Source: Pseudomonas putida
GTDB taxonomy: Bacteria > Pseudomonadota > Gammaproteobacteria > Pseudomonadales > Pseudomonadaceae
Assembly: GCA_029953615.1 (NCBI GenBank)
Contig: CP124529.1
Location: 3,968,501 to 4,032,500 of the forward strand
DNA length: 64,000 nucleotides
Direction: 5' to 3'
Below, in pieces: positions 1,699 through 48,945 of this stretch; the stretch's first letter is position 1; the number at the start of each line of letters is the position of its first letter. The translations under genes were made by a program, and so were the position numbers. Under the pieces are notes generated by a model. That model ran no database searches. It saw nothing but the letters and a program-made list of their open reading frames with translations, and was not told the origin of the DNA.

Positions 1699-1774
1699 GG
1701 GGCTATAGCTCAGCTGGGAGAGCGCCTGCATGGCATGCAGGAGGTCAGCGGTTCGATCCCGCTTAGCTCCACCA
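1699..1774 (+). tRNA. tRNA-Ala (anticodon GGC), copy 1
   Basis: Complete 76-nt cloverleaf with encoded CCA. The acceptor stem is GGGGCTA/TAGCTCC, and the anticodon loop ATGGCAT lies within a CCTGC/GCAGG stem. First gene of the Ala-Glu array. Confidence 0.97.
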
Positions 1775-1846
1775 AATTCCGCTTGGCAGCCAAGGCTGCC
1801 GGGCAAGACCGGGTCCAGCAACCGGGTCTTGAAGGTAAGAAGGTTC

Positions 1847-1922
1847 GTCCCCTTCGTCTAGTGGCCTAGGACACCGCCCTTTCACGGCGGTAACAGGGGT
1901 TCGAGTCCCCTAGGGGACGCCA
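1847..1922 (+). tRNA. tRNA-Glu (anticodon TTC), copy 1
   Basis: Complete 76-nt cloverleaf with encoded CCA. The acceptor stem is GTCCCCT/AGGGGAC, and the anticodon loop CTTTCAC lies within a CCGCC/GGCGG stem. Separated from tRNA-Ala copy 1 by a 72-nt spacer unlike the other two Ala-Glu spacers. Confidence 0.97.
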
Positions 1923-1975
1923 GTTTCGCACAAGCGATGTTTCAGAATGTCGCTGGGCCGAGAGGCTAAAAATCC

Positions 1976-2051
1976 GGGGCTATAGCTCAGCTGGGAGAGC
2001 GCCTGCATGGCATGCAGGAGGTCAGCGGTTCGATCCCGCTTAGCTCCACCA
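1976..2051 (+). tRNA. tRNA-Ala (anticodon GGC), copy 2
   Basis: Identical in sequence to copy 1. First part of the second Ala-Glu unit. Confidence 0.97.
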
Positions 2052-2092
2052 ATTTGCCGCGGTTCGTGTAAACGGATCGGCACGAAGGTTAC

Positions 2093-2168
2093 GTCCCCTT
2101 CGTCTAGTGGCCTAGGACACCGCCCTTTCACGGCGGTAACAGGGGTTCGAGTCCCCTAGGGGACGCCA
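2093..2168 (+). tRNA. tRNA-Glu (anticodon TTC), copy 2
   Basis: Identical to tRNA-Glu copy 1. The spacer to the preceding tRNA-Ala (...CGGATCGGCACGAAGGTTAC) is nearly the same as in the third unit, which points to a recent tandem duplication. Confidence 0.97.
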
Positions 2169-2194
2169 CTTTTCCTGCGTTTTGCAGGGCTTTA

Positions 2195-2227
2195 AAGGCT
2201 CGTCGATTACTGATGAGCCTTTTGTTT
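2195..2227 (+). terminator. Terminator-like hairpin between tRNA-Glu 2 and tRNA-Ala 3
   Basis: Stem AAGGCTCGTC / GATGAGCCTT followed by TTGTTT. It ends one base before tRNA-Ala copy 3 begins, so copy 3 has no room for its own promoter. It looks like a duplicated copy of the array's end terminator. Confidence 0.7.
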
Positions 2228-2228
2228 C

Positions 2229-2304
2229 GGGGCTATAGCTCAGCTGGGAGAGCGCCTGCATGGCATGCAGGAGGTCAGCGGTTCGATCCCGCTTAGCTCC
2301 ACCA
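2229..2304 (+). tRNA. tRNA-Ala (anticodon GGC), copy 3
   Basis: Identical to copies 1 and 2. It begins directly after an internal terminator-like hairpin, so its transcription must depend on read-through or processing. Confidence 0.97.
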
Positions 2305-2346
2305 TTTCTGCCGCGGTTCGCGCAAGCGGATCGGCACGAAGGTTAC

Positions 2347-2422
2347 GTCCCCTTCGTCTAGTGGCCTAGGACACCGCCCTTTCACGGCGGTAACAGGGGT
2401 TCGAGTCCCCTAGGGGACGCCA
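2347..2422 (+). tRNA. tRNA-Glu (anticodon TTC), copy 3
   Basis: Identical to the other two tRNA-Glu copies. Last gene of the array. Confidence 0.97.
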
Positions 2423-2449
2423 CGTTTACCCGCGTTTTGCGGGACTTTG

Positions 2450-2486
2450 AAGGCTCATTCGATTATTGAATGGGCCTTTTGTTTTT
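2450..2486 (+). terminator. Terminator of the tRNA array
   Basis: Stem AAGGCTCATTC / GAATGGGCCTT with a 7-nt loop, followed by TTTGTTTTT. Typical intrinsic terminator closing the array. Confidence 0.8.
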
Positions 2487-2595
2487 CTCCCTGCCCCAAC
2501 ATTCCGCAACCGACAGACGGCTACAGTTTCTGCTTGCCAAAAAATATTATGTGAATAATATTTCGAGCATCATATTTTGTTCGGCGAGTGGTCTG

Positions 2596-3136
2596 ATGAG
2601 TGACAAGAAGAGCAGAACCCGTGAACGCATTCTCGAAGCGGCGCGAAGTGCGCTGATCCAGCATGGCCCGGCCGAACCTAGCGTCAGCCAGGTCATGGGG
2701 GCGGCGGGCCTGACCGTCGGCGGTTTCTATGCCCACTTCGACAGCAAGGACGAGTTGATGCTTGAAGCGTTCCGCCAGTTGCTGGCCGAGCGCCGCGCCT
2801 TGCTCTCCCAGGTCGACCCCAGCCTCGATGGCGCCGGGCGGCGGGCGCTGGCCAGTGCCTTCTACCTGTCGCGCAAGCATCGTGATGCCGAAGTGCACGC
2901 CTGCCCGCTGCCTAACTCCTTGGCCGAGATGCAGCGCCTGCCGGAGGCCTTCCGCGAGGTGCTGGCCGAACATATCGAGCTGATGGCTGCCGCCATGGTC
3001 GGACCGCCCCGAGGACGCCGACAAGGCCTTGGCCGACCTGGCCCTGATGGTTGGCGGACTGGCGCTGGCCCGTGCGCTGGGCACCAGCGAGCTGTCTGAT
3101 CGGATTCTGCGCGCCGCCAAATCGGCGGTGCTTTAA
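2596..3136 (+). pseudogene. TetR/AcrR family regulator, frameshifted
   Basis: TetR-type repressor. The N-terminal helix-turn-helix (SRTRERILEAARSALIQHG... VGGFYAHFDSKDELM) is intact. The start ATG at 2596 (MSDKKSRTRER) matches the usual TetR N-terminus better than the upstream in-frame alternative at 2470. Near 3001 one extra base shifts the frame: the expected continuation DRPEDADKALADLALMVGG...RAAKSAVL is encoded in the next frame and stops at 3134-3136. Apart from that base the gene is full length (about 179 residues). It ends 15 bp before the hydrolase gene, so the two probably form an operon. The effector is unknown. Confidence 0.8.
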
Positions 3137-3151
3137 CCCTGGAGCATGGCG

Positions 3152-4006
3152 ATGACTACCCTGAGCTGGATTCGTGGTGTCAATGGCACCCTGGGCCGCC
3201 TGGCCCCCGAGCACGTCGCGGGCAAGATGCGCCGTGCCTTCATGACGCCGCGCAACCTGCCGCCACGGGATTGGGAGTTGCCCATGCTGGCCAGCGCCGA
3301 GCGCATTACCCTGCGCTTCGGCTTGTCTGCCCTGCGCTGGGGCAAGGGGCCGACCGTGCTGCTGATGCACGGCTGGGAAGGGCGGCCGACCCAGTTTGCC
3401 GCGTTGATCGAAACCTTGGTCCAGGCCGGGCACACGGTGGTATCGCTGGAGGGACCGGGGCATGGGCGCTCGCCCGGCGAGCAGGCCAATGTGGTGCTGT
3501 TTGCCCGTGCGCTGCTGGAGGCTGCCGCAGAACTGCCGCCGTTGCGCGCGGTGATTGGCCATTCCATGGGCGGTGCCAGTGTCTTGCTGGCCTTGCAGAT
3601 GGGGCTGCGCACAGAGGCAGCGGTCAGCATTGCAGCCCCGGCGCGACTGTTGGGCGTACTGCGTGGCTTTGCCCATCGTCTGGGGCTGCCAGCGCGGGCG
3701 CGTGCGGCGTTCATTCGCCAGGTGGAGCGGGATGTGGGCATGCAGATTGCGCGGCTGGATGTGACGGGTTACCAGCTGGAGTTGCCGGGGTTGGTGGTGC
3801 ATGCCGCCGATGATGCCTTGGTGGCCGCTGATGAAGCCCAGGTGATCCACAAGGCCTGGTTCGATAGCCGCCTGATGTTGCTGGAGGCGGGTGGCCACCA
3901 GCGGGTGCTGTCCGACCCTCGCCTGAGTGAGGCGGTGCTGGAGCTGCTGGCCCGGGCTGGCGCGGTCCCTGTAGGAGCGGCCTTGTGTCGCGATGGGGCG
4001 CGGTAG
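3152..4006 (+). CDS. Alpha/beta-fold hydrolase
   Basis: Cytoplasmic alpha/beta hydrolase of about 284 residues. Visible elements: oxyanion-hole segment LLMHGWEGR, nucleophile elbow GHSMGG (Ser about 138), a late acid in HAADDALV, and catalytic His in GGHQRVL. The ATG at 3152 is preferred over that at 3146 because GGAG (3141-3144) is 7 nt away. The last 13 or so codons and the stop lie inside a REP-type palindrome (AVPVGAALCRDGAR), so the natural C-terminus is probably a little shorter. Located directly after the TetR gene, its likely regulator. The substrate cannot be told. Confidence 0.85.
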   Translation: MTTLSWIRGVNGTLGRLAPEHVAGKMRRAFMTPRNLPPRDWELPMLASAERITLRFGLSALRWGKGPTVLLMHGWEGRPTQFAALIETLVQAGHTVVSLEGPGHGRSPGEQANVVLFARALLEAAAELPPLRAVIGHSMGGASVLLALQMGLRTEAAVSIAAPARLLGVLRGFAHRLGLPARARAAFIRQVERDVGMQIARLDVTGYQLELPGLVVHAADDALVAADEAQVIHKAWFDSRLMLLEAGGHQRVLSDPRLSEAVLELLARAGAVPVGAALCRDGAR

Positions 4007-34422: not shown

Positions 34423-36980
34423 TCACGGTTGGCACATCAGGCGCTGGCGCTCGTAGTTGACCGCCGCGTCCCGTTCCGGCAGGTCGTAGTGGGCCGCGCA
34501 CTGGCGTTCGCCCCATTTGATGGTCAGGCTGCCCTGGTCCTGCTCCAGCAGCACCAAGGCCTTGCCGCTTGGGTCGGAAATCGCCAGCTGGCGGCCCTCG
34601 GCGTCCTCGACCGATGCCCCGAAGGGTAGCAACTGGCCGCGTTCGTCGAACAGCTCGAACTGCACCCGACGCCCGCTCTTGCCGGTGTAGCGGGCAAGCA
34701 CTACGGCGCCGCGGCGTGGCACCAACTGCTGGGTGGCGTTGTCGATCTCGATGTCGCCGCCCAGGTCGCGCGTGTCCAGGCTGATCCAGTTGACCCGATA
34801 GGGCTGGGCACTGGGGATCACCGCATAGCCGTTGCGCCCGGTTTCCACGCCGCTGTAGTTGCTGATTTTTGCCCCCTGCACACCCGGTACTTCGGCCAAG
34901 GCGAAGGTTTCGCCGAGCGTCTGGCCGAGGTTGATACCGCCCTGGTGGGCAACCACGGCGCCGGCGACGTTGAGGTTCTGCGAATCGTAGCCGCGCCCCT
35001 GGCTATAGCCCAGGCTGATGTCGGCGACCGAGGTGCGGGTGTTCAGGTTGGCCGAGGCCGAGCTGCCGCTGGTGCGACTGTGACCGCCCTGGATCGAGTA
35101 GAAGGTGTCGCTGGTTTCCGACAGGTAGCCGTTGATGCCCGCCTGGGTGGTCTCGTTGCCTTTCTGCGTACTGCTGGTGACGAACGCTCGCGGTGCGCGG
35201 GCGCGGCTGCCGAGCGGGAACGATAGCGACAGGTTGAACTGGGTATCCTGCCCCGCAGGGCCTGAGGTTTCCAGCTCCTTGGTGCGACTGACGTCGAGGT
35301 TATAGGAGATATCGCCCCAGTTGTTGCTGTAGCCGGCCGACAGGCTCTGCGAACCGCCGCGGTTCCAGTAGCGCTGGTCGCTGGCCGTCAGGTAAAGGCT
35401 GCCGAGTGCACGGTCGCGGCCCAGGCTCTGGTTGATGGTCAGGTCGGTGCGGGTCTTGGAGTTGCCGCTGCGCTTGATCGCGTCGCTGCTCTGGTCCTCG
35501 ATTATGCTGGGTGAGGGTGCGGAAGCCCTCGGTGGAGTAGCGGTAGGCGGCCAGGGTGAAGTTGGTATCGGTGCCGGTGAAGGTCTTGGCGTACAGCGCC
35601 CGCAGGCTGTTGCCCTGGGTGGTCTGGCCCTGGGCCTTGCTCGAGGAATGGGTGACATCGAGCGAAAATGCGCCCACCAGTGTGTTCAGGCCACTGCCGA
35701 CGGCCAGTGCCTTGTAGTCGTCGGTGGCTTGCAGGCCAACCACGCCGGTTACGGTGTTGGTCAGGCCGTAGGCCAGCGTCGTGCTGAGCATCTGCGGCGT
35801 GGCCAGGCCCTCGCTGTTGCTGTTGTAGCGCCCGGCGGACAGGCTGTACTTGACCTGGCCGCCACGGACCATCAGCGGCAGGCTGGAGAACGCCTGCGTG
35901 CTGACCCGCCGGCGACCGTCGGTCTCGATGATGGTGATTTCCAGGTCGCCGTTGGAGCCGCTGGGGTAGATGTCGCTGATCTCGAACGGGCCGGGCGGTA
36001 CGTTGGCGGTGTACAGCAGGTAGCTGTTCTGGCGGATCTCGACCCTGGCGCTGGTTTGCGCCACGCCCCGCACCACAGGTGCGTAACCGCGCTCGCTGTC
36101 GGCGCGCATGCCTTCGTCCGAAGCCAGCTTCAGGCCCCGGTAACGCACGCTGTCGAACAGGTCGCTGTCGCTGAAGATGTCGCCGGCGCTGAACTGGCCC
36201 TTGAGCGCGGTCACGTCGTGCTGCAGGTAGCTGCGGTTGCTCTTGAAGCTGTCCGGCCGCCCGGTGCCACTGCTGAAGTTCGACTCGTTGCGCAAGCGCC
36301 AGCTGCCAAGGTTGATGCCGTTACGCAGGCTCAGGTTGTTGTTGATGCGGGTCTCGGCATCAGCGGCGCTGCGGCTGGTGTTGAACTGATAGTTGATGAA
36401 TGCCGCAGGCACACCCGCGTCCCACAGTTGCGGGTCGACGTAGCCGCGCAGGCCGCGCTTCATGGCGACTTGCGGAATGCTGGCGGACAGGCGCAGGTGA
36501 CCACGAATCATAGTTCAGGCTGGCCTGGTCGATCAGCGTGGGCAGGTCGTGGCAGGCCGCTTCGCTATCCAGGCGCCCCTGGGCCCTGAGCTTGTCCATG
36601 TCGATGCCCAACTGCTCGAGCAGCTCCAGGGTCAGGCACGGTTCCACGCGCCCGGTGTGGGGGTTGCGGTTGAAGTCGATGTCACGCCGGCCCACCAGTA
36701 CCTCGTTACTGTACAGGTCTACCCGATAGTTGCCCGGCAGCACGCTGCTGGCCGATAGCAGTAACTGCAGGTCGACCGCCGATTGCACACCTTGCAAAAA
36801 GGTGGTGTTGAAGCCCTGCAGCTGGGGATCGTCCTGCGCCGTCGCGAGGCCGGGCAGCGCGCTGCACAGCAGCAATGACAGGGCGTTGAGCTTCCAGGCT
36901 GGACGAGGCGTGCTGCCATTGAGCGCGCGCGCGCCTGCATCGGCACCGTCTACGGAGCGGGGGGCGATGGACAAAGACAT
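34423..36980 (-). pseudogene. Fimbrial outer-membrane usher (FimD/CupC3 type), two frameshifts
   Basis: Outer-membrane usher that threads chaperone-pilin complexes across the membrane. A signal peptide (LNALSLLLCSALPGLATAQ) is followed by the N-terminal chaperone-binding domain (FNTTFLQGVQSAVDLQLL), the beta barrel with plug (NVPPGPFEISDIYPSGSNGDLEITI) and C-terminal domains (RRGAVVLARYTGKSGRRVQFELFDERGQLLPFGASV). Single extra bases at about 36503 and 35502 break the frame twice. In each case the next frame continues at once, so a complete usher of about 850 residues can be read. Last gene of the pilin-chaperone-usher half-operon. Confidence 0.85.
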
Positions 36981-37064: not shown

Positions 37065-37811
37065 TCACAAGCTGATGGCGGGTTCGGCAGGCTTGGCGCT
37101 ACCTGGCTGGGCAGGGCTCAGCAGCACGGAATAGCCATGCTGGGCGCCATAATCGTTGATGCTCTTGAAGGTGAGCGTCAGTGGGCCGTCCACTTGCGAA
37201 AGTGCCGAGCTGAAGGTCTTTTGTTCTCCGGGGGCGATCATGCTCGAGTCGGCGCTGAACACGGCCTGTTTGCCGCGTTTGACTTCGATGTCGGCCATCG
37301 ACACGTGATACAGGCTGGGGTTGTTCACGGTCAGCGTTGCCTTGCCGGCGTGCTGGGTCACTTGCCAGACCAATTGCTCCGGTGCCAGCAAGGCATTGCC
37401 GGGCAAGTTGGCCGGGCGGAAGAAAATCTTGATGCGTTGGCGCACTGCCAACTGCAGGGTATTGGCCTGGGTACTGGCTTGCGGAATTTCCTGCACATTC
37501 AGCCAGACCACCGATTCGCGGTCGGTCGGCAGGCCCTGGCCCTCATAGAGAATGCGCAGCAGTTGTTCCTGCTTGGGCATCACTCGGGCCAAGGGAGGGG
37601 TAATGGCAAACGGCGCCTGCGCGCTGTCGCCGGCATCCACCCAGGACTGCACCAGGACTTCCTGGTTGCCATTGCGCACGATGACATTGGCTTCCTTGTG
37701 AGCACCGTCGAACACGACGCGCGTAGCGCTCAGGGAAATGCTGGCGGTTGCCTGGGCAGCGACGAGCATGCCCAGCAACCCGAAAACGGGATACAGAGAA
37801 CGACGCAACAT
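37065..37811 (-). CDS. Periplasmic fimbrial chaperone (PapD-like), first copy
   Basis: 248 residues. Start at 37811 (MLRRSLYPVFGLLGMLVAAQATA signal peptide), not the longer upstream frame. The PapD N-domain has SLSATRVVFDGAHKEANVIVRNGN and the conserved RESVVWLNVQEIP; the donor-strand region and LRILYEGQGLP are typical. It binds and folds pilins for the usher encoded just downstream. Confidence 0.93.
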   Translation of the reverse strand: MLRRSLYPVFGLLGMLVAAQATASISLSATRVVFDGAHKEANVIVRNGNQEVLVQSWVDAGDSAQAPFAITPPLARVMPKQEQLLRILYEGQGLPTDRESVVWLNVQEIPQASTQANTLQLAVRQRIKIFFRPANLPGNALLAPEQLVWQVTQHAGKATLTVNNPSLYHVSMADIEVKRGKQAVFSADSSMIAPGEQKTFSSALSQVDGPLTLTFKSINDYGAQHGYSVLLSPAQPGSAKPAEPAISL

Positions 37812-37884
37812 GGTTGGGGTACCTTGCGGGACGAAGAAGTGGCGAGGCTGTTCAGCCTCGCGCAGGGGAACAGCGGCGAATCGA

Positions 37885-38484
37885 TTATTCGTACTGCAGG
37901 ATGAACGGCAGGGTGGCGTCACCACGACCGGCGGTGGCAGTGCCGGCGGTGCCGGTGGTCACGTAGGCTGCGGAGAAGCTCAGGGTGGCATCGCCGCCGG
38001 CAGCGCCAGCGCCGTGTACTTCGCTCTGGATCTTGGCGGTGGCGGGCGAGCTCAGGTCGATCAGGTTGCCGTTCGGGTCAAGCAGGGCGATGCCGACGTT
38101 GGCAGCAGTGCCGGTGCCTTTGGTCAGGGCCAGGACCTTCTTGCCGGTGACCAGGCCCGAGCCGCCGCTGTTGGCGTCGAAGACCATCGCCACCTTGGTG
38201 CCGACGTTGCAGTTGACGTTGAGGTTGAAGTCCTTGCCGGATACGCGGCCTGCGCTCGGGTTCTCGGCGGTGCCCATGTCCTTGATCGAGACGCTGCCCA
38301 TGTCCACGGCGATTACGCGGTCGGCATTGGCGCCGTCGACCGAACAGGCGTCATTGTTGATCACGCCGGTGAAGGAAATCTTGCCGCTGCCACCTTTCAC
38401 TGGCCCGGAAGGTTCGGCAGCCAGTACACCGGCTGAAGCGGTGATGAGCGAGAGGGTCAGTGCGGCCAGGGAGAATTTATTCAT
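37885..38484 (-). CDS. Major fimbrial pilin subunit
   Basis: 199-residue type 1-like pilin. Start at 38484 (MNKFSLAALTLSLITASAGVLAAE, signal peptide). GKISFTGVINNDACSVDG carries the first Cys, and NVNCNVGTKVAMVFDA the second, for the pilin disulfide. The C-terminal DATLPFILQYE has the alternating pattern and penultimate Tyr recognised by the chaperone. First gene after an RcsB-like box. Confidence 0.92.
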   Translation of the reverse strand: MNKFSLAALTLSLITASAGVLAAEPSGPVKGGSGKISFTGVINNDACSVDGANADRVIAVDMGSVSIKDMGTAENPSAGRVSGKDFNLNVNCNVGTKVAMVFDANSGGSGLVTGKKVLALTKGTGTAANVGIALLDPNGNLIDLSSPATAKIQSEVHGAGAAGGDATLSFSAAYVTTGTAGTATAGRGDATLPFILQYE

Positions 38485-38533: not shown

Positions 38534-38576
38534 ACAATAAGTCAGGTGGTTTCCCTGGCCCATCAGACGAATCTTA
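38534..38576 (-). promoter_or_regulatory. RcsB-like box and promoter of the pilin-chaperone-usher operon
   Basis: Minus-strand box TAAGATTCGTCTGA (38576-38563), immediately followed by a poor -35 (TGGGCC), 17 bp, and -10-like TATTGT (38539-38534). The box is a partial dyad and fits the RcsB homodimer consensus I recall from enterics at 12 of 14 positions. The same layout occurs at 48492-48450. Confidence 0.6.
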
Positions 38577-38598
38577 ATGGTTGGCCTACGACGCTTAG

Positions 38599-39246
38599 TT
38601 AATTGAAGATATGCCTCGCCAAGCAATAGGCCAATAACTCCTGATCGCTGTTTACTTCAAGTTTACGCATGGCGGAAACTTTCTGTGCACTGATGGTCTT
38701 GGTACTTCGGTGTTGGCTGCGGGCAATCTCGCTGACACTTTGGCCGGCCACGAACAGGCGCAGTATTTCGAATTCCTTGGGCGACAGGTTTTCTACCCGT
38801 TGGTCGATGGCGGTATTACAGGCTATCACCGAATGCCTTGCCGGTTCCGGCGCCCGGTAGGTGCGGTTGCGAGCCACCGCGTTCAGGGCCTTCTCGATTT
38901 CACCGTGCAGTTGGCTCTTCTGGATGACACCGTCCACGCCCAGCTCCTGCAGCCGCGTGAATATCAGTGGGTTGGAAATCATGGTCAGCACGAGAATGCG
39001 AACAGCGGGATAGTGGCGCTTGAGATACTCGATCAGTTTCAACCCGTCACCGTAGGGTGAGTCTGCCGGCATGTTGTAGTCGGAAATGACCATGTCCACG
39101 GGTTGGCGTTCGAGCAGTTCGATCAGCCCTTGCGAGCAGACGGCTTCGCCGACCACGCAAAAGCGCGGGTCGCGTTCGACCAGTTCGCGGACGCCGAGCA
39201 GTACGATGGGGTGATCGTCGGCGATGATGACCTTCAGTTTTTCCAT
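38599..39246 (-). CDS. RcsB/RocA-like response regulator (LuxR-type HTH)
   Basis: 215-residue two-domain regulator. Receiver domain (KVIIADDHPIVLLGVR; phospho-acceptor Asp56 in VISDYNMP; Thr in VLTM) and a C-terminal LuxR HTH (LSPKEFEILRLFVAGQSVSEIARSQHRSTKTISAQK). The N-terminus and HTH closely follow enteric RcsB, which supports the ATG at 39246; an in-frame ATG at 39291 is the alternative, and neither has a clear ribosome site. It is the predicted output of the hybrid kinases upstream and the likely activator at the two boxes flanking the locus. Confidence 0.88.
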   Translation of the reverse strand: MEKLKVIIADDHPIVLLGVRELVERDPRFCVVGEAVCSQGLIELLERQPVDMVISDYNMPADSPYGDGLKLIEYLKRHYPAVRILVLTMISNPLIFTRLQELGVDGVIQKSQLHGEIEKALNAVARNRTYRAPEPARHSVIACNTAIDQRVENLSPKEFEILRLFVAGQSVSEIARSQHRSTKTISAQKVSAMRKLEVNSDQELLAYCLARHIFN

Positions 39247-39315
39247 AAATGACGACCCGTTAGCCAGTGCGGATGAGTGGGTGGTTTCCATGCGTTATCA
39301 GCGCTGTAGTTGATT

Positions 39316-42300
39316 CTATGCAAGGCTGTCGAGCATTGCCGACAGCTTGTCCAGCACCTCCCGTATCCTGGCCGTCAGGGTAGCGTCGAGCGGCGAGTTG
39401 GCCAGCGCGTCCTCAAGTAAGCAGCACTGCTCGGACAGGGCTCTGGCCTGCACCGCGCCCAGGGCCCCGGCGACGCTGTGCAGGCGCTCGCCAAGACGCC
39501 GATGGTCGCGTTGTACGAGGGCCAGGCGCAACTGCTGCAGGTCCTCGTGCATGGTGCTGATGAACAGCGCGCGCATGCTGGCGGGCACTTGCACAGTGTC
39601 GCCGGTGGCAGGCAGGGGCGAGGTGCCGTGGGTGTCCGCTTGCGCATGGCTGGGCCCATCGGCCAGGACCGGCCGGCACAGACGGAGCAGATGGCTGCGC
39701 AAGGCCTGCAGGCTCAACGGTTTGACCATCCAGGCATTCATGCCCACCTCGAGGCAGCGCTGGCCCTCTTCGCGCAGGGCATTGGCGGTAACGCCGATGA
39801 TCGGCAGACGGGCGTCGTGCTGGCGCAGGGTTCTGGCCAGCTCGTAGCCATTCATCAACGGCATGTTCACATCGGTCAAGACCAGGTCGAACAGGCCTGG
39901 CTGCCAGCGTTGCATGGCCTGTTCGCCGTTGGCCGCGACGACCGTGGTGCAGCCCAGCGCCTCGAGTTGCTCCTGAAGGATCGCCTGGTTGATCGGATTG
40001 TCCTCGGCCACCAGCACATGCAGGCGCAGGGCGGCACGTTGCTGCTGCGCACAATAGTGACTATCGGGCACGCCGCCCTGGCGCACCAGGGCGATGACCT
40101 GGGCGATGGCGCGCACGTCATGCAGGTCTACCCGCCAGCAGCCGTCGATGAATGCGCCGGGGGCCGGGCCGCCGCTGCAAGCGCAGATCCGCTGGCCATG
40201 CCAGCTGGCAGCATCCGGGCAGTCGAGCAGGTCGACCAGCAAGGCCTGGGGGTTGTCCTGCTCCAGGGGGGGAATCGTCAAGGTTGCGGCGATGCCCAGG
40301 CGCTGCAGCCAGTCGACGCCATGCTGGGCAAGTTCCGGTATCGGCGCACGCACGTACACCGGGGTCGGGTCGGGCACCAGGTTCGGGCAGTCGCTCAGCG
40401 CCCCTTCGGCCAGCGGCAGGCTGACGGTGAGCGAGAAGCTGCTGCCCAGGCCCGGCTCGCTGACCACCTTGATCCGGCCGCCCATCATCTCGGCCAGCCA
40501 GCCGCAGATCGGCAGGCCCAGGCCTGCGCCGCTCTCGCTGGAGGCGTCGGCGACCTGGTAGAACAATTCGAACAACCTGGCCTGCTGCGCCTGGGAAATG
40601 CCGATGCCGGTATCGGCAACCTGGAATTGCAGGCTGACCTGGTTGGCGTCGAGCGTCAGCACGCGGGTACGCAGCACCACCCGGCCGGTGTCAGTGAACT
40701 TGATGGCGTTGCTCAGCAGGTTGTTGAGGATCTGGCGGATGCGTATCGGGTCGCCCACCACCTGGGCCGGCAGGCGGGCGTCGTGGCAGGCATACAGCAG
40801 CAAGCCCTTGCGCTCGGCGAAGGCGCGATAGGTGCGCACGGTGTCCTCGAGCAGTTCCAGCGGGCAGAACGTTACCGGCTCGAGCGCCATTTGCCCGGAC
40901 TCGATCTTGGTCACGTCGAGCACGTCGCTGATCAGCTGGAACAGGGTTGCCGAGGAGCGCTGGATGGTGTGCAGGTAGCCTTGTTGGCGAGCATCCAGCT
41001 GCGTCAGGCCGAGCAGCTCGAGGGTGCCCAGCACGCCGTACAGCGGGGTGCGGATCTCGTGGCTCATGGTCGCCAGGAACAGGGTCTTGGCGGTGTTGGC
41101 GGCATCGGCGGCGCGGCGCGCCTCGTCCAGCGCCTGGGCGTCCTCGACGTGGCGGGTTACGTCGTTGAATGCATAAAGGCGCACGTCTTCGCCGTGGTAG
41201 CGGGTCGACACGAAACCCACCTGCAGATGGCGACCTGCGACCTGCAGGTAATGTTCGCCGCTGCTAGCCTCGCCCACCGTCGAGGCGAGGGTGTTGACCA
41301 GTTCCTGGGTGCCCTGCCATTGCTGCGCCCGCTGGTTCTCCAGCAGCACTTCGTGGTCGCCGTTACGCACCACGCACAGGCCGGTCGGGGCGGTATCGAT
41401 GACCACCCGGTTGAAGGCTTCGCTTTCGGCGATGGTTTCATGGGCGGCGCGTGCCGGCAGGATGACCTGACGCTGATACCAGCGGATTGCTACCCGGCCC
41501 AGCCCGATGAGCACCAGGAAGGTGACGGCAATACTGGTCAGCGACCAGAACGCGTAGCGGAAAAAGTGCCGGTAGGTCACGGTGTAGACCGCGCTCCAGC
41601 CGCCGTTGGCCTGTTCGTGGAGACGGAACACGAGGCCCTCGGGTTTGATGTTGAGGCCCTCGTGCACGCCCTCCAGGGTGGCAGGCGTACCGATGAGCAC
41701 TTCGCCGGACGGGGCGATGAGGTTGAAGTGGTCATACACCGTCCAGTCCATGATGCGTTCAAAATCGTCGATCTGCGCCAGGTCCACCAGCGACGCCACT
41801 TGCATGCGCTGGCTGTCGGCGTTGGCCGAGTGCAGGATGACATTGGCATACGCCAGCACGCGCGGCGGGGAGGCCTGGTCCGGCTGTTCGACATAACTGC
41901 GCCAGATGATCCCGCCTCCCGGGCGCCAGTCCTCGGCGCGTGGCTGGCGCGCCATGACCTGGCGGATGACGTCGATGAATGGTTCTTCCTCGGGCTTGCC
42001 GCGCCCACGCCCTGCAGCGGGCACCGTGATGTCGTAACGGGCATCCGGCGAGAACAGGAATACCTGCGGCGAGCGGTAGGGCGAGGCTGACCAGAACATG
42101 CTGTAGAAACTGGCCAGGTTCGCTCCCTGGGTGTAGACCTCCGACACGTCGCCGTCAGCGAAATTGCGCCGGTCGAGCTTGAGGCTGAACGGCATGGAGA
42201 ACGGGAAAACCTCGCCCTTGTAAATGTCCGGCCCTTCTTCGGGCAGTGGCGTCAGCACGGGTTCGAGCGTACGAGGGAAGTCGAGCAGCTGCCCCTGGGC

Positions 42301-42528
42301 GCTGCGTTGTACGAGGGACTGGAGGAAGGTTTCCTGCTCCTGGATATTTTCCATCAGGCGGGCGAAATGGATGCTGACCGTATCGCTGTGTTCATCGACC
42401 AGGCGCTCGATCGACCACAGGCTGAAGCCGGCCAGCAGCAGTGCCAGGCCCAGCAGCACGGTCATGCCTTTGTTCAGGCGCAAAGAGCTGCGGGCCAGGT
42501 TTTCCAGCAGGGCGTTGTAGTGTTTCAT
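39316..42528 (-). CDS. Hybrid sensor histidine kinase with receiver and HPt domains
   Basis: 1070-residue unorthodox kinase of the RocS/RcsC type. TM1 ([18 protein letters not shown], about 20-40), a periplasmic sensor of about 290 residues, TM2 (about 330-350), a PAS-like segment, HisKA with [16 protein letters not shown], HATPase ([28 protein letters not shown]), a receiver ([10 protein letters not shown] ... [13 protein letters not shown]) and a C-terminal HPt ([16 protein letters not shown]). It carries the only HPt seen in the locus, so it may also relay phosphate for the second kinase. It lies 69 bp upstream of the RcsB-like gene. Confidence 0.93.
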
Positions 42529-42612
42529 GCAAGGATCCGCAAGGCCGTGGGGGCATCGATAGCCAATGTAGATTACCTTGGATGCCCGGCCGGTGCTGTG
42601 AGTTACAGCGAG

Positions 42613-43806
42613 TCAGTAGGCCGAGGGCGGGCCGTCGCTGTGCAGCAGGCGCTGGAACTGTTCCGCCGACACGGCATGGGAAATCAGAAAGCCCTGTACC
42701 TGGTTGCAATCGACCTTGCGCAGCAGTTCGAGCTCCTCCGGTGTCTCGACCCCTTCGGCCACCACCGTGAGGCCGAGTTTGCGGCCCAGGGCGACGATGC
42801 TGGCCAGGGCCGAGGCCAGGCTCTCGCTTTCATCGCAACGCTGCACCAGCGCGCGGTCGATCTTGAGCTCGGTGAAGGGCGTCGAGACCAGGCTCATGTA
42901 GGAGCTGTAGCCTTTGCCGAAGTCGTCCTGGGACAGGCCGAAACCTTTCATCCGCAGACGGCAGGCGCCCGCGTAGAAGTTGCTCAGCTGTTCGGGAATG
43001 GAGCATTCCATCAACTCGAAGCAGAGCTTGCCGGGCACGCCCTGGTGGTGCAGGACGAACTCCAGCAGGCGGTCGGCCAGGTCATGGCTGTTCAGCAGGT
43101 GGGTCGGCAGGTTGATCGAGACCGGGATGTCATAGCCCCGTTCCCGCCAGCGCGCCTGGGCATCCATGGCTTGCTTGAGCATCACCCACAGCAGCCGTTC
43201 CTCCAGGCCGAAGGCTTTGAGCGCCGGCAGGAAGGTGCCAGGCAAAAGCACCCCTTGCTCCGGATGCATCCAGCGCACCAGCGCCTCGGCTGCGACGATG
43301 CGGCCATTGTGCAAGGACTTCTTGGGTTGGAACCAGGCCTGGAAGGCCCGGTTGTTCAAGGCGTCGACCAGGGTCTGGCGGTCGAATTCGGAGGTGGTCG
43401 CCGTGGCCTGGGCCGGCGCCTGATGGTGCAGCTGCAATTGGTCGATCAGGCTGCGCAGCGCGCTGGGCTCGACGGGCTTGGAGATCAGCCCGAGCACGTC
43501 CACGCCGAGGTTCTTGGCCACTAGGCTGGCCGCCATCAGCATGCGCCGCGAGGCCGCGCTCATGATCGCCAGGCCTGGCTTGTGGCGCAGCCCGGCGAGG
43601 TGCTGGATGAACTGCACACCATCCATGCCGGGCATCAGCAGGTCGGTCAGGACCAGGTCGAAGTCACGCTGGCGCAGGCGCTCCAGGGCTTCCTGACCAT
43701 CCCGGGCCGCTTCCAGGTTGAAGCTGCCGAGTTCGCTGAACAGGTGTTGCAGGTACATATGCTGGAACGGGTGGTCTTCGACAATCAGGATGTTAAAGGA
43801 CTTCAA
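42613..43806 (-). CDS. REC-EAL response regulator, c-di-GMP phosphodiesterase (RocR/PvrR-like)
   Basis: 397 residues. Receiver domain (ILIVEDHPFQHMYLQ, Asp55 in LVLTDLLMPGMDG) followed by an EAL domain (about 145-390). Catalytic residues look complete: EALVRW, SINLPTHLL, ELMEC, DDFGKGYSS, ELKIDRA, VAEGVET and QGFL. It should hydrolyse c-di-GMP under control of the neighbouring kinases. Its start overlaps the end of the second kinase gene by 14 bp, implying coupled translation. RocR and PvrR play this part in P. aeruginosa. Confidence 0.92.
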   Translation of the reverse strand: MKSFNILIVEDHPFQHMYLQHLFSELGSFNLEAARDGQEALERLRQRDFDLVLTDLLMPGMDGVQFIQHLAGLRHKPGLAIMSAASRRMLMAASLVAKNLGVDVLGLISKPVEPSALRSLIDQLQLHHQAPAQATATTSEFDRQTLVDALNNRAFQAWFQPKKSLHNGRIVAAEALVRWMHPEQGVLLPGTFLPALKAFGLEERLLWVMLKQAMDAQARWRERGYDIPVSINLPTHLLNSHDLADRLLEFVLHHQGVPGKLCFELMECSIPEQLSNFYAGACRLRMKGFGLSQDDFGKGYSSYMSLVSTPFTELKIDRALVQRCDESESLASALASIVALGRKLGLTVVAEGVETPEELELLRKVDCNQVQGFLISHAVSAEQFQRLLHSDGPPSAY

Positions 43807-46649
43807 GACGGCTACCTCGATACGGGGCCAGGCAGTTGAACAGGGCTTGCAGGTTGAAAGGCTTGATCAGGCAGCGATCCATGCCGGCGGCCAGGCACAG
43901 TTCTTCCTCGCCGCGCAGGGCATTGGCGGTGGCGCCGACTATGGGCCGGGTGCAACCCAGCCGGCGCAGGGTCCGGGCCAGTTCGTAGCCGTTCATGGCG
44001 GGCATGTTGACGTCGGTCAGCAGCAGGTCGAAATGCTCGCGCTGCCAGGCTTGCAGGGCCTGTTCGCCGTCGCTGGCCAAGGCCACGCTGCAGCCGAGCT
44101 GTTCGAGCTGGTCACGCAGGATCAGCTGGTTGATGACGTTGTCCTCGGCCACCAGCACGTGCAGCCCCAGTGGCTCGGTCGAGGGGGCCGGCACGGCCTG
44201 GTCCCGGGGGCGACGCAGGCCCTGGGCCTGGCCGACGGCCTGGTGCAGGGCCGCCAGGTCGTTGAGGTTGACCTGCCAGTGACCGGCTTCGTGCCGCCCC
44301 TCCCAGCAGTCCTGGGAGCTGGCCAGGATGCGCGGGCCAGACCATTCGGTGACCAGCCAGCGCTCGACATTGCCGGGATGCAGTTCGACCAGCAGTTCGC
44401 CAGCCAAAGCGCTGCCCGGCACCGGTGCGCCGACCTGGGCCCGTGCGCCCCAGCGGCACAGCCAGCCACTGATGGCTTCGGCCAGTTCGTGCACCGGGGA
44501 TACGCACGTAAATGCGTTCGGCCAGCAGGTTGAACGGGGTACCAGCACGGCCAGATGCGACTTCCAGCGGCAGGGTCAGGCTGAAGCTGCTGCCCAGGCC
44601 CAATTCGCTGACCACGCGCAGATGGCCATTCATCAATTGTGTCAGGCGCTGGCAAATCGGTAGCCCGAGCCCGGTGCCGGGGATGGCCTGGGTATAACCT
44701 TCGGTCTGGTAGAAGGGGTCGAAGATGAACGGCTGGTCCTGTTCGGCGATGCCTTTGCCGGTGTCCGAAACCTGCCACAACAGGCAGGACCTTTCGCCGT
44801 CGCGGTTGAGCAACCTGGCCCGCAGCACCACCCGGCCGCAATCGGTGAACTTGACTGCATTGCTCAGCAGGTTGTTAAGGATCTGGCGGATCCGGTTGAC
44901 GTCGCCGATCAGCTGTTCCGGCAGACGCGGGTCCAGGCAGCTGTAGAATTGCAGGCCCTTGCTGGTGGCAGCCGCACTGTAGCCCTGGATCACTTCACGG
45001 ACCAGATTCGGGGCACTGAACTCGCTGAGTTCGAGGGCCAGTTGTCCGGCCTCGATCTTCGACACGTCCAGCACGTCACAGATCAACTGCAGCAAGGTCG
45101 ACGAGGAACCTTCGATGGCCCTCAGGTAATCGCGTTGCTGTACGTCGAGCGTGGTACGCGAGAGCAGTTCCAGGGTGCCCAGTACACCATATAACGGCGT
45201 GCGGATTTCGTGACTCATGGTCGCCAGGAACTGCGTCTTCGCTTCGTTGGCAGCGTCGGCCGCGCGCCGGGCGTCTTCCAACGCGGCCTCGATCTGCTTG
45301 CGGGCGCTGATGTCGCTGAACGCGCACAGCAGCACCTGCTCGCCCTTGTAGCGGGTGGGTGAGCAGCTCAGGTACAGGTGGCGCCCTTCGGCGCTCTCGA
45401 AGTAGTCGCTGCACTGGCCGTCGGGCCGCTCGAAGGCCTGCTCGATCCATTGTCCGCTGCGCAGGCTGCGGGCCTGGTCCTGACCCAGCCACTGCTGGGC
45501 CAGGTGGTTCTCCAGCACCACCTGGCCATCACTGCGACGCAGCACGCACAGGGCGACGGGCGCGGTTTCAATGACGTCACGGCTGAACATCTCGCTTTCC
45601 ACCAGTGCGCGGATGCGTTCGACGGTGGGGGTGAAGAAACGCTGGTCGAAACGCTGGATCAGCACTCGTATCAAGCTGATGCTGAGGATGCAGAGCAGCA
45701 GGGCTCCTAGCAGTTGCTGCCACAGGCCGGCAAGGATGGCGGACAGGTCGATCGCGTAGACCAGTTGCCAGTCCGAGGACATCAATGGCTTGCTGATGAC
45801 CAGGTACTCAGGCAGCAAGCCCTGGCCGGCGAAGCCGAAAAAGTTGTCACCCACGGGCTGGCGCAGCGAACGCTCCAGTGTCGGCCCCGGGCTGTTGGTG
45901 AACACCAGCATGTCGTCAGCGTTGAACATCATGAATTCGCCCGCGCTTGCATCCGCGAGCGCCGGCGCCACTGCCTGGCTGTCGATTTCCAGGCCCAGCC
46001 AGCCCGAATCCGCGTCGCGCTCGTCCAGGCGCAGGAAGATGAACAGGCGCGAGCGGTGCGCGTCTCGGTCGGCCAGCCACAGTTCCTGGGGCGCGGTGGA
46101 TCGTTCGCCTGCAGCACGCAGCTGCTCCAGCAGCGCAGGCGAAGGCGGCGCGGCCTCGGCGTCTGCGTGGTACAGCCAGCGCATCGGGGCCTGGGCTGCC
46201 GTGTCGACGTACAGCAGGTTGACCTGCCTGGCCTGGAGGTAGGCGCACATGCGCCGGGTCAGCCACAGGCTCCAGCGCTTGCCCGGCTGACTGCCCAGTT
46301 CCAGGTGCACTTCTTCGCCTGGGGCCAGGGGCAGCCAGTCCGCGCCCGGTTCCGTCTGGCGCACGGCCGCGAGGCTCAGGCTCTCCAGCAGTGCCTCGCG
46401 GTTGGTGAAGAAAGTGTGCGCCTCGGCGATCGCGCTGCTCATGGCGCCGTGGCGCCGGGCGATGTCGGTGTTGAAGGTGAACGACAGGAAATTGTAGGCC
46501 GCGCCGAGAATGCCGGCCGACAGCACGATCGCCAGCAGCCGAAGCAGGCGGCGCGCTGCCTCGGGGTCGGAGAGGAGGGGGTTGATCTGTTGCAGATAGG
46601 CTTTGAGTCGCATGCGGCGAATGTAGGCAGGCCGCTGGCAACTGGACAT
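43793..46649 (-). pseudogene. Hybrid sensor histidine kinase (PvrS/RocS-like), frameshifted
   Basis: About 950 residues when both frames are joined. TM1 (LLRLLAIVLSAGILGAAY), a periplasmic sensor, TM2 (QLLGALLLCILSISLIRVLI), PAS (DVIETAPVALCVLRRSDGQ), His[18 protein letters not shown], HATPase (NLLSNAVKFTDCG, GTGLGLPI) and a C-terminal receiver (LVAEDNVINQ ... LLLTDVNMPAMNG). One extra C/G in a run of four (44496-44499) shifts the frame between HATPase and receiver; without it the text reads YVRIPVHELAEAISG. No HPt follows the receiver. HisKA and receiver are strikingly similar to those of the other kinase, so they are probably paralogues. Confidence 0.88.
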
Positions 46650-46682
46650 CAGACGATCCTTAAAGGCCGTCTGGCCGTGGGC

Positions 46683-47672
46683 TTACTTGTAATAAAGATC
46701 CACCAGCGCCATGGCTTCGAACGGACCGGGGATGGCCGCCGAGCGCCAGATCAGGTCGGCGCGGAACGCGTTGCGGATCACGCCCGGCGCGGTCAGTTCG
46801 GCCAGCTTGAACCAGCTGTCGAAGGGCACCGGTTGGTTGCTGTCCTGCTGGGTCAGGGCGATGCCAACCGAGCTGTTGTTGCTGGGTACCAGCAGTTTGT
46901 CGATGACACTGGCGCTGCCAACGACCGGGGTGAAGCGAGCATTGACGGTGTAGGGCGTGTCGCAGGACCGCACCAGGTCGAGGCTGAAGTCGGCCGAGCT
47001 GGCGACTTGGCCGACCTGTGCCGAGCTGGCCAGGGCACGGCGGAAATTGACCACCGAAGGCAGGATGGTCAATTCAGGCGAGCAAGGCACGAAGCGGATG
47101 TTGTTCATGCCGGTGACCACATAGTTGAGGTTGCTGTTGGGCTTGGGATTGAGGCCACCTCTGCCGTCCAGCTGGAATACCCGGTATTCGCCGAGCGTGC
47201 TGGCTTGCCCATCGGTTGGCGTTGCGCCGTACTTTTCGATGAACACGGTGAAGTTCAGGGTGAAGCGGGCCTTGTCCCAGCCCGCACAGTTCGCCCAGGT
47301 GCAACCATGAAGCGAGTTGTAGCCCGTGGTGACGGCGCCCGAACTCTGGGTAATGGTCTGCGAGCCGTAGCGAATCCCGACCCGTATGCCCTTGCCGATA
47401 TTGGCCTTGGCCGGGTTTACGTAGAAATAGACGTCTTCCCTTATACCGGTTTCATAGTCGTCGGCGCATATGACCGGAAGCGAGTGTTGCGCCGACTCCC
47501 AGATGATCGTGCCGTCGGGCGCGTCGGCCGGTACCGCCAGTGCGGTGCCCAGTGCCTCCTTGAGTACCGCCTCCTTGGACGGGTCCAGCTTGCAGGACAG
47601 TGCGTAACTGGTGGCGGGGCAGCTGGCGACGATGAATAACAGGCCCAGCAAGTGTTTGCGGATCAGGGTCAT
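46683..47672 (-). CDS. Fimbrial tip adhesin-like subunit
   Basis: 329 residues. Start at 47672 (MTLIRKHLLGLLFIVASCPATSYA signal peptide, CAGGA upstream); a GTG at 47702 overlapping the chaperone stop is the alternative. Its length and Cys pairs (LSCKLDP...VICADD; CTWANCAGW; VPCSPEL...RSCDTPY) suggest a two-domain tip adhesin with a C-terminal pilin domain ending in EAMALVDLYYK, the chaperone-binding strand. Ligand unknown. Confidence 0.82.
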   Translation of the reverse strand: MTLIRKHLLGLLFIVASCPATSYALSCKLDPSKEAVLKEALGTALAVPADAPDGTIIWESAQHSLPVICADDYETGIREDVYFYVNPAKANIGKGIRVGIRYGSQTITQSSGAVTTGYNSLHGCTWANCAGWDKARFTLNFTVFIEKYGATPTDGQASTLGEYRVFQLDGRGGLNPKPNSNLNYVVTGMNNIRFVPCSPELTILPSVVNFRRALASSAQVGQVASSADFSLDLVRSCDTPYTVNARFTPVVGSASVIDKLLVPSNNSSVGIALTQQDSNQPVPFDSWFKLAELTAPGVIRNAFRADLIWRSAAIPGPFEAMALVDLYYK

Positions 47673-47698
47673 GGGGTAGCTATCCTGTAGGGGTGTGT

Positions 47699-48403
47699 TC
47701 ACGGCAGCGCGATGCGGTGGTGCCTCTGCAGGCCGATATCGGTGAGTTCGCTGAACGTCAGGTGGCTCTGCACGGGCAAGGGTGAAGGTGCTTCGAGGGT
47801 GAGCGATTCCCCCGGGCGCAGCAGGATATAGTCCGTTAGCTGTTGCGACTGCCCAGGGTTGTCGAGCCGCAGGTCCACCAGCGAGACATGGAAGGCACTC
47901 GGGTTACGCACTTCGATCTGGCCGGGCTGGGGCGCGCGCCATTGCAGGCCATCGGCTGCCGCACTGGCCGAGCCTGGCAGGCCGGCAGGGCGGTAGAACA
48001 GCTTCAGGCGCTGGCGGATGGCGAACTGCAGGGTGTCGGCCTGTTCGGGTTTACGCGGGATCTCGAGAATGTTCAGCCAGAACAGTGACTCCCTGTCCTC
48101 GGGCAGGCCCTGGCCGGCGTACAGCACCCGCAGCAGCTGCTGGCCGTTGGCGGGTATCAAGGCTAACGGCGGGACAACCGCGAAGGGGGTATCGCGGCCC
48201 TCGTCGGGGCTGCTGACCCAGCTCTGCACGACCGTGTCGAGGCCGCTGCGATTGACCACGTTGATGTTCGCTTCCTTGGCCGAGCCCTGGTAGATCAGGC
48301 GCGTGCCTTCGATCTTGAGCTGGCACCAGGCAGTGGAGGCCAGGCTCATCAGCAGGAGTGCCGCCATGGCCGGGCGCGAGAGGGTATGAAGCAGGCGCGA
48401 CAT
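47699..48403 (-). CDS. Periplasmic fimbrial chaperone, second copy
   Basis: 234 residues with signal peptide (MSRLLHTLSRPAMAALLLMSLASTAWC, start 48403). PapD motifs GTRLIYQGSAKEANINVVNRSG, LRVLYAGQGLPEDRESLFWLNILEIP and FYRPAGLPG. It shares the RESxxWLN core with the first chaperone but is divergent, as expected for a chaperone dedicated to the adhesin encoded directly downstream. First gene of the upstream half of the locus. Confidence 0.92.
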   Translation of the reverse strand: MSRLLHTLSRPAMAALLLMSLASTAWCQLKIEGTRLIYQGSAKEANINVVNRSGLDTVVQSWVSSPDEGRDTPFAVVPPLALIPANGQQLLRVLYAGQGLPEDRESLFWLNILEIPRKPEQADTLQFAIRQRLKLFYRPAGLPGSASAAADGLQWRAPQPGQIEVRNPSAFHVSLVDLRLDNPGQSQQLTDYILLRPGESLTLEAPSPLPVQSHLTFSELTDIGLQRHHRIALP

Positions 48404-48449
48404 GGTCGGGGAAGGGTCTCCGGTGAGGTTGGCTGGGAGGGGCCTGGCT

Positions 48450-48492
48450 ATCCTAGACCGCTGCATCGCCGCCGGCTTTGAGACGTTTCTTA
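48450..48492 (-). promoter_or_regulatory. RcsB-like box and promoter of the chaperone-adhesin-signalling operon
   Basis: Minus-strand box TAAGAAACGTCTCA (48492-48479), then AAGCCG in the -35 position, 17 bp and TAGGAT (48455-48450). It shares 11 of 14 bases and exactly the same spacing with the box before the pilin gene. Confidence 0.6.
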
Positions 48493-48600: not shown

Positions 48601-48945
48601 ATGAGCGGCAAGCGATTCGCAGTGAGTGTGGCTATTTGCCTGGCCCTGGTTGGCCAGGCCCAGGCAGGCGGCGGCGTCGCCTCAGGAGTGCTGCAATTCA
48701 GTGGCAGCATCGTCGAACCATCCTGCACCACCACGGTGGGCAGTGCCGGTTGGCGCATGGATAACTGTCCGGCGCTGGCGCGTGACAGCGTCATTGGCAT
48801 CCAGGCGGTGGATGAACAGGCGCTGCCGGCGCAGGCGGTACGCATTGATCGTGGGCACAGCGTGGACCAGGCCTACAGGCTGGTCGATGAGCACGGCAAG
48901 CCGTTGACCCAAGGCCGTTACGTGGTGGTCGTGACCTCACCTTGA
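48601..48945 (+). CDS. Small type 1 pilin-like protein
   Basis: 114 residues. Start at 48601 (MSGKRFAVSVAICLALVGQAQA, signal peptide). GVLQFSGSIVEPSCTTTVG matches the N-terminal part of type 1 pilins, with a second Cys in MDNCPAL. It ends GRYVVVVTSP, without the usual aromatic chaperone-binding end. Divergent from the chaperone gene over 197 bp. It could be a minor subunit, terminator or periplasmic regulator of assembly. Confidence 0.7.
   Translation: MSGKRFAVSVAICLALVGQAQAGGGVASGVLQFSGSIVEPSCTTTVGSAGWRMDNCPALARDSVIGIQAVDEQALPAQAVRIDRGHSVDQAYRLVDEHGKPLTQGRYVVVVTSP

Follow-up and report, generated by a model that had tools for sequence, protein, structure and literature searches.

The closest described system is the cupD fimbrial locus of Pseudomonas aeruginosa PA14, in which cupD1-5 and the regulatory genes pvrS, pvrR, rcsC, and rcsB are found on PAPI-1 (PMC2696094, PMC3842833; statements on published work here and below follow the accessible parts of the papers). 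Transcription of cupD1 depends on RcsB, and a GAA at -78 to -76 is essential (PMC3842833). Overproduction of RcsB induces pvrS, pvrR, rcsC, and rcsB (PMC3842833). Here we describe a related locus in Pseudomonas putida (GenBank assembly GCA_029953615.1, contig CP124529.1, a genome of 5.76 Mb in a single contig). It lies in a stretch of 64,000 nucleotides (positions 3,968,501 to 4,032,500), which was analysed as a whole and is called the window. Three 14-bp elements (boxes) in this locus, each beside a promoter with a -10 hexamer but a poor -35, are very likely, from comparison of sequences, operators of the locus's own RcsB-type regulator. Through them, RcsB most likely activates three units of the locus.

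The locus is of the cupD/pvrSR/rcsCB type. On the minus strand it encodes, from 5' to 3', a second chaperone (chaperone 2), an adhesin-like subunit, a hybrid kinase, a receiver-EAL protein, an unorthodox Hpt kinase, an RcsB-like regulator, a pilin, a chaperone, and an usher. The order pvrS-pvrR-rcsC-rcsB stands beside a chaperone-usher operon, with pvrS and the usher of the window open only as pieces. The four regulators and their order are those of PA14 (PMC2696094, PMC3842833), where the pvr/rcs genes are RcsB-induced, and an RcsB site upstream of the pilin operon, here predicted, is common to both (PMC3842833). Unlike in PA14, where cupD1-5 are listed as one cluster, the genes for chaperone 2 and the adhesin stand apart upstream of pvrS, as a unit that has a box to itself. 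A cupD-type target and autoinduction were already known. The additions made here are a conserved pvrS box with a fixed, probably leaderless geometry and a separate chaperone-adhesin promoter, and a statement of these two was not found in the accessible parts of the literature searched. The boxes and their hexamers are located as follows.

48479..48492, minus strand: box before chaperone 2, TAAGAAACGTCTCA, found in 8/8 named loci having chaperone 2
48450..48455, minus strand: -10-like hexamer TAGGAT, 23 bp after the chaperone-2 box
46649..46662, minus strand: third box, TAAGGATCGTCTGA, before pvrS
46620..46625, minus strand: -10-like hexamer TACATT of the pvrS promoter, 23 bp after the third box and 6 nucleotides (nt) before the pvrS ATG
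38563..38576, minus strand: box before the pilin, TAAGATTCGTCTGA, 23 bp past the rcsB stop codon
38534..38539, minus strand: -10-like hexamer TATTGT, 23 bp after the pilin box

A preliminary description of this DNA had proposed a 14-bp dyad at the same distance from two fimbrial promoters, those of the pilin and of chaperone 2. Both boxes and both hexamers are present at the proposed places, and the boxes are identical at 11 of 14 bases. Their symmetry is imperfect, with 8 of 14 positions equal to their own reverse complement. Naming two promoters was right for the pilin and chaperone 2 and left out the box before pvrS, which has the same 23-bp spacing. An RcsB-like regulator is indeed encoded between the two sites, and the proposal that it activates both halves of the locus is supported by the conservation of the boxes, by their bias toward rcsB carriers, and by the need for GAA in the PA14 cupD1 promoter; the regulator's own operon was missed as a third target. 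The proposal was largely precedented, because PA14 RcsB activates cupD1 via a site with the essential GAA and induces the four regulatory genes. The pilin box fits the enteric RcsB-box consensus at 12 of 14 positions in the form assumed in the preliminary description and at 13 of 14 in the form assumed by us.

Conservation of the boxes was seen in the upstream regions of orthologous loci, a comparison that the preliminary description had suggested. A scan of named genomes kept 80 loci, of which 20 (L038-L057) have pilin, chaperone, and usher genes downstream of the regulators. A box was counted if it lay within 160 nt upstream of the start of homology. With at most one mismatch, it is found in 44 of the 48 regions upstream of pilin (17/20), pvrS (20/20), and chaperone 2 (7/8). 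At most two mismatches bring the pilin to 20/20, with pvrS at 20/20 and chaperone 2 at 7/8. In the remaining chaperone-2 region (L044), a one-mismatch box lies 155 nt ahead of the start of homology and is cut off by the 160-nt limit. Other 160-nt windows of the same 20 loci contain a box with at most one mismatch in 4 cases out of 4821, and permuted patterns over the same 48 regions give a mean of 0.03 and a maximum of 1. Mean identity is 88-98% in the boxes and 38-43% in the 17-bp spacers. The hexamer TAnnnT starts 37 nt from the box start in 21/21 pilin, 20/21 pvrS (38 nt in the other), and 9/9 chaperone-2 promoters, the window included. Conservation extends to the AAGCC that immediately follows the chaperone-2 box (the first six bases are 91% identical). 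In L042, where the chaperone 2-adhesin pair is located beyond the usher on the opposite strand, box and hexamer still precede the pair.

The distribution among genomes also follows rcsB. Fifty of 398 genomes were searched, comprising 30 of the 119 with an rcsB match (at least 68% identical) and the first 20 listed of the 279 without; the non-carriers are smaller on the whole than the carriers. Exact matches to TAAGRNWCGTCTNA numbered 69, with 67 in the carriers and 2 in the non-carriers, as against 21 and 5 for a backward control pattern. Within 16 kb of rcsB there are 53 of the 67 carrier matches, spread over 25 of the 30 carriers; this count includes sites other than the three promoters, such as three in G391 C8 that precede other genes. 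Of the 14 carrier matches elsewhere, one is itself a pvrS promoter (G363, L131), one stands ahead of an adhesin-like reading frame (L129), and two stand ahead of a response regulator gene (L119, L122). One of the two non-carrier matches lies ahead of a pvrS piece in L133. In that genome (G123), which has no rcsB match, this piece continues into a piece of the usher gene at 1724-3481, and the pvrS box and an adhesin-like open reading frame (ORF) with its own box remain. Judged by this arrangement, L133 is a relic of the locus through internal deletion. Scanned over the whole home genome, as had also been suggested, the pattern of the preliminary description gives few matches: 2 exact and 5 with one mismatch, against 27 for its backward control. 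The exact ones are the pilin and chaperone-2 sites, which is circular because the pattern was derived from them. One of the five is the pvrS site, which is not circular. TAnnnT at the same spacing was found at none of the 4 off-locus genome matches.

The third promoter keeps a constant distance from the start codon of pvrS. We searched 250 nt before the ATG, with the position free, in 51 loci with a pvrS-pvrR pair, the window and the relic piece included; 8 of 59 candidates (window included) were skipped, having no such pair. The best match to TNAGRNNCGTCTNA falls at a distance of 49 or 50 nt from the ATG in 48 of the 51. Of 28 representatives (identity below 70% over the last 60 nt), 26 have the box at this distance. 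Shuffled patterns share a distance in 5.7 of 28 on average and in at most 18 of 28, a maximum explained by the resemblance of some shuffled patterns to the real one. Three loci fail (L060, L066, and L144); L060 has a further in-frame start, and this one is 49 nt away from a box with 3 mismatches. For L063 and L072, 49 nt is one of several positions that tie at 3 mismatches. The hexamer at +37 among the 48 is TAnnnT in 37, CAnnnT in 8, and another sequence in 3. The set with the fixed box includes a Stenotrophomonas locus (L069, two mismatches) and the aeruginosa-type L143, in which an exact box is found 49 nt before the ATG. The reverse complement of the PA14 pvrS deletion primer reads CTTTCGGC-ATG-AAGTTG, and the same 17 bases surround the ATG of L143 (PMC2696094). 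The box 49-50 nt before the ATG is a candidate cis element for RcsB autoinduction. A pvrS-promoter site is not mentioned for PA14 in the accessible parts of PMC2696094 and PMC3842833.

Across relatives, the pvrS hexamer usually ends 6-7 nt before the ATG, which would place +1 on or beside the A of the ATG. Since the promoter is fixed relative to the start codon, a leaderless transcript is predicted; the pvrS mRNA probably starts at the start codon itself. Mean pairing with the 16S tail is weaker for pvrS (-1.89 kcal/mol) than for the pilin (-3.15) or rcsC (-3.43), with 21 sequences each and overlapping ranges. In L045, hexamer and ATG move together by one base. L136 and L137 still have the box (one mismatch to the degenerate pattern) 49 nt before the pvrS ATG, and fimbrial genes were not found in 20 kb at these loci.

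The regulator has a receiver and a GerE helix-turn-helix (HTH). Its best match among solved structures is the E. coli/Salmonella RcsB, and it aligns over residues 3-207 of the 214 of E. coli RcsB. In E. coli RcsB, K180 and S184 contact bases (PMC5829831). K180 is kept here; at position 184 the window has Ala, and the 20 loci have Ala, Thr, or Ser. Because S184 is not kept, we call the protein RcsB-like and claim no orthology to enteric RcsB. Enteric RcsB homodimer sites are usually upstream of the -35, and with promoters such as rprA and osmC the present locus has in common an activator site upstream of the -35 region and an RcsB-type HTH regulator (PMC5651002). Its relay proteins and targets are different, as is position 184. 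The pilin box of the window starts 92 nt upstream of the ATG and has GAT; that of L143 starts 80 nt upstream and has GAA. The GAA of L143 is at -77 to -75, one base off the PA14 site. An RcsB-box sequence was not found in the accessible parts of PMC6900184 and PMC7917084, and RcsB appears in the P. aeruginosa factor binding atlas in the reference list only (PMC8041468).

Through the three boxes, RcsB would drive pilin-chaperone-usher, chaperone 2-adhesin, and pvrS-pvrR-rcsC-rcsB. Since the -35 beside the box is poor, phosphorylated RcsB, bound next to RNA polymerase, would replace it. The contact would be class II-like, with the box centred at about -42.5 if the pvrS mRNA starts at the ATG. 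RcsB would amplify its own relay, and by way of the EAL protein PvrR it would also strengthen the brake on itself.

Several observations weigh against activation of the locus by its own regulator through these boxes. The first concerns the adhesin-like genes upstream of pvrS in the fluorescens group: a one-mismatch box together with TAnnnT is found only in L050, boxes in L051, L053, and L055 have 3 mismatches with TAnnnT, the one-mismatch box in L056 is without TAnnnT, and no box was found before the gene in L045 and L052 among the loci of this group examined. Aeruginosa-type loci have CAnnnT or GAGGCT as the hexamer and not TAnnnT. The loss of S184 counts here as well, as do the 14 carrier matches located elsewhere than near rcsB and the five of 30 carriers with no exact match near it; two of these five were examined, and both have a 2-mismatch box before pvrS. 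Some of the 51 pvrS loci are closely related, and L149, whose contig has the length of that of L062, looks like the same record. Within the window, 3 matches with at most two mismatches were found, not above shuffles (mean 4.56; at least 3 in 76 of 100). Counting matches in the window was rejected as proof of the boxes for being uninformative, and since these counts are at chance level, the case rests on the comparison between loci. The window count is also what a merely fortuitous resemblance of the boxes would predict, an explanation to which we give next to no credence, contradicted as it is by the conservation, the exact spacing, and the genome distribution.

Activation by the locus's own RcsB also has to be set against a mainly different input. 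The boxes could be bound chiefly by another regulator of the NarL/LuxR type, either Roc-like or an orphan, through which the locus would be cross-regulated, with RcsB one of several inputs. Related regulators with similar HTHs are common, at 42 loci (L076-L117; about 37-46% identity) in the named scan, and an exact box precedes another receiver-GerE regulator gene in two carrier genomes. We consider this improbable: in the 20 non-carriers the pattern does not exceed its backward control (2 vs 5, with one of the 2 in the locus relic), and cupD activation in PA14 is reported to be strictly RcsB-dependent (PMC3842833). A different doubt concerns the pvrS transcript, which might not be leaderless. 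The fixed distance would then belong to a promoter for a later or earlier start, with translation from adhesin-unit read-through. The start of pvrS is only 70 nt past the adhesin stop codon in the window, making read-through possible, and bacterial start sites are not callable from sequence alone. This too is unlikely, if less so, as the distance is kept without an adhesin upstream and even where fimbrial genes were not found (L136, L137), the hexamer leaves 6-7 nt to the ATG, a Shine-Dalgarno-like run seems not to be conserved, and in L045 the one-base shift is common to hexamer and ATG.

The coding features of the locus are listed below.

47699..48403, minus strand: PapD-like second chaperone, probably starting at ATG 48403, which lies downstream of the promoter and is preceded by GGAG
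46683..47702, minus strand: adhesin-like fimbrial subunit, PF00419 at the C-terminal end
44112..46613, minus strand: initial open piece of a pvrS-like hybrid kinase, beginning at ATG 46613; the remainder is in another frame, ORF 44548-43793
42613..43806, minus strand: pvrR-like receiver-EAL protein
39316..42528, minus strand: rcsC-like unorthodox kinase with HisKA, HATPase, receiver, and Hpt
38599..39291, minus strand: rcsB-like response regulator
37885..38484, minus strand: pilin, likely start ATG 38484
37065..37925, minus strand: first chaperone, ORF as listed
34423..36980, minus strand: usher, open only as three overlapping pieces in different frames

The frame breaks of the window, in the usher (34423-36980, three pieces) and in pvrS (43793-46613, two pieces), may be sequencing errors or real decay; each gene is a single open frame in 20/20 named relatives. 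Among named genomes, the closest rcsB loci belong to Pseudomonas sp. MN1F (97%), P. vlassakiae (96%), UBA4617 (95%), and P. taiwanensis (93%), and the window was accordingly assigned to the P. putida group. Plasmid records contained only distant RcsB relatives (best 45.1%), and no RcsB relatives were found in viral contigs. A short ORF with a signal-like start (48601-48945, plus strand) is divergent from chaperone 2 across the boxed region, and no Pfam match was found for it. The Roc1 system of cupC/cupB has in common with this locus a NarL-type activator, an EAL antagonist, and a hybrid kinase controlling fimbriae (PMC3842833). A pvrR-like gene is found on the opposite strand from the regulator in 40 of the 42 loci L076-L117. 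We take these to be Roc-type loci.

Boxes are also seen in other settings. In L056, box and spacer occur twice, ahead of the adhesin-like ORF (1584) and again ahead of pvrS (2716); the first copy is without the hexamer, and the arrangement looks as if it arose by copying of the promoter. At 2876 of L129, in a P. spelaei-like genome, an exact box is found before a fimbrial adhesin-like ORF (PF00419) that is unlinked to the locus. The boxes before another receiver-GerE regulator gene are at 2978 of L119 and 2689 of L122, where the pvrS-rcsB cluster is without fimbrial genes nearby; a like report exists for orphan regulators in PA14 (PMC3842833). At 2758 of L120 and 2777 of L130, TAAGACTCGTCTTA and TACACT at the same spacing precede an ORF of 194 or 179 amino acids and lie between this ORF and a divergent adhesin-like ORF.

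Taken together, we lean toward the reading that RcsB-type regulators of Pseudomonas fimbrial phosphorelays drive their own operon directly, via a promoter locked to the pvrS start codon, with the kinase at the head of the relay made from a leaderless mRNA, and that this has been kept from aeruginosa-type genomes to Stenotrophomonas. The putida-group variants of the box (TAAGGAT at pvrS, TAAGATT at the pilin, TAAGAAA at chaperone 2) would then set an activation order of relay, shaft, and tip. RcsB of PA14 is reported to raise expression of its own operon and of the antagonist PvrR, with no site named for this in the accessible parts of the report (PMC3842833), and the box locked to pvrS is a ready candidate. 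It opens the positive loop with its cyclic di-GMP brake to direct testing. A leaderless start conserved at the kinase gene, if true, would be an unusual translational handle on this loop. Since the chaperone-adhesin pair has an RcsB-type promoter to itself, genes for the tip and the shaft may be open to reshuffling while still sharing one regulon.

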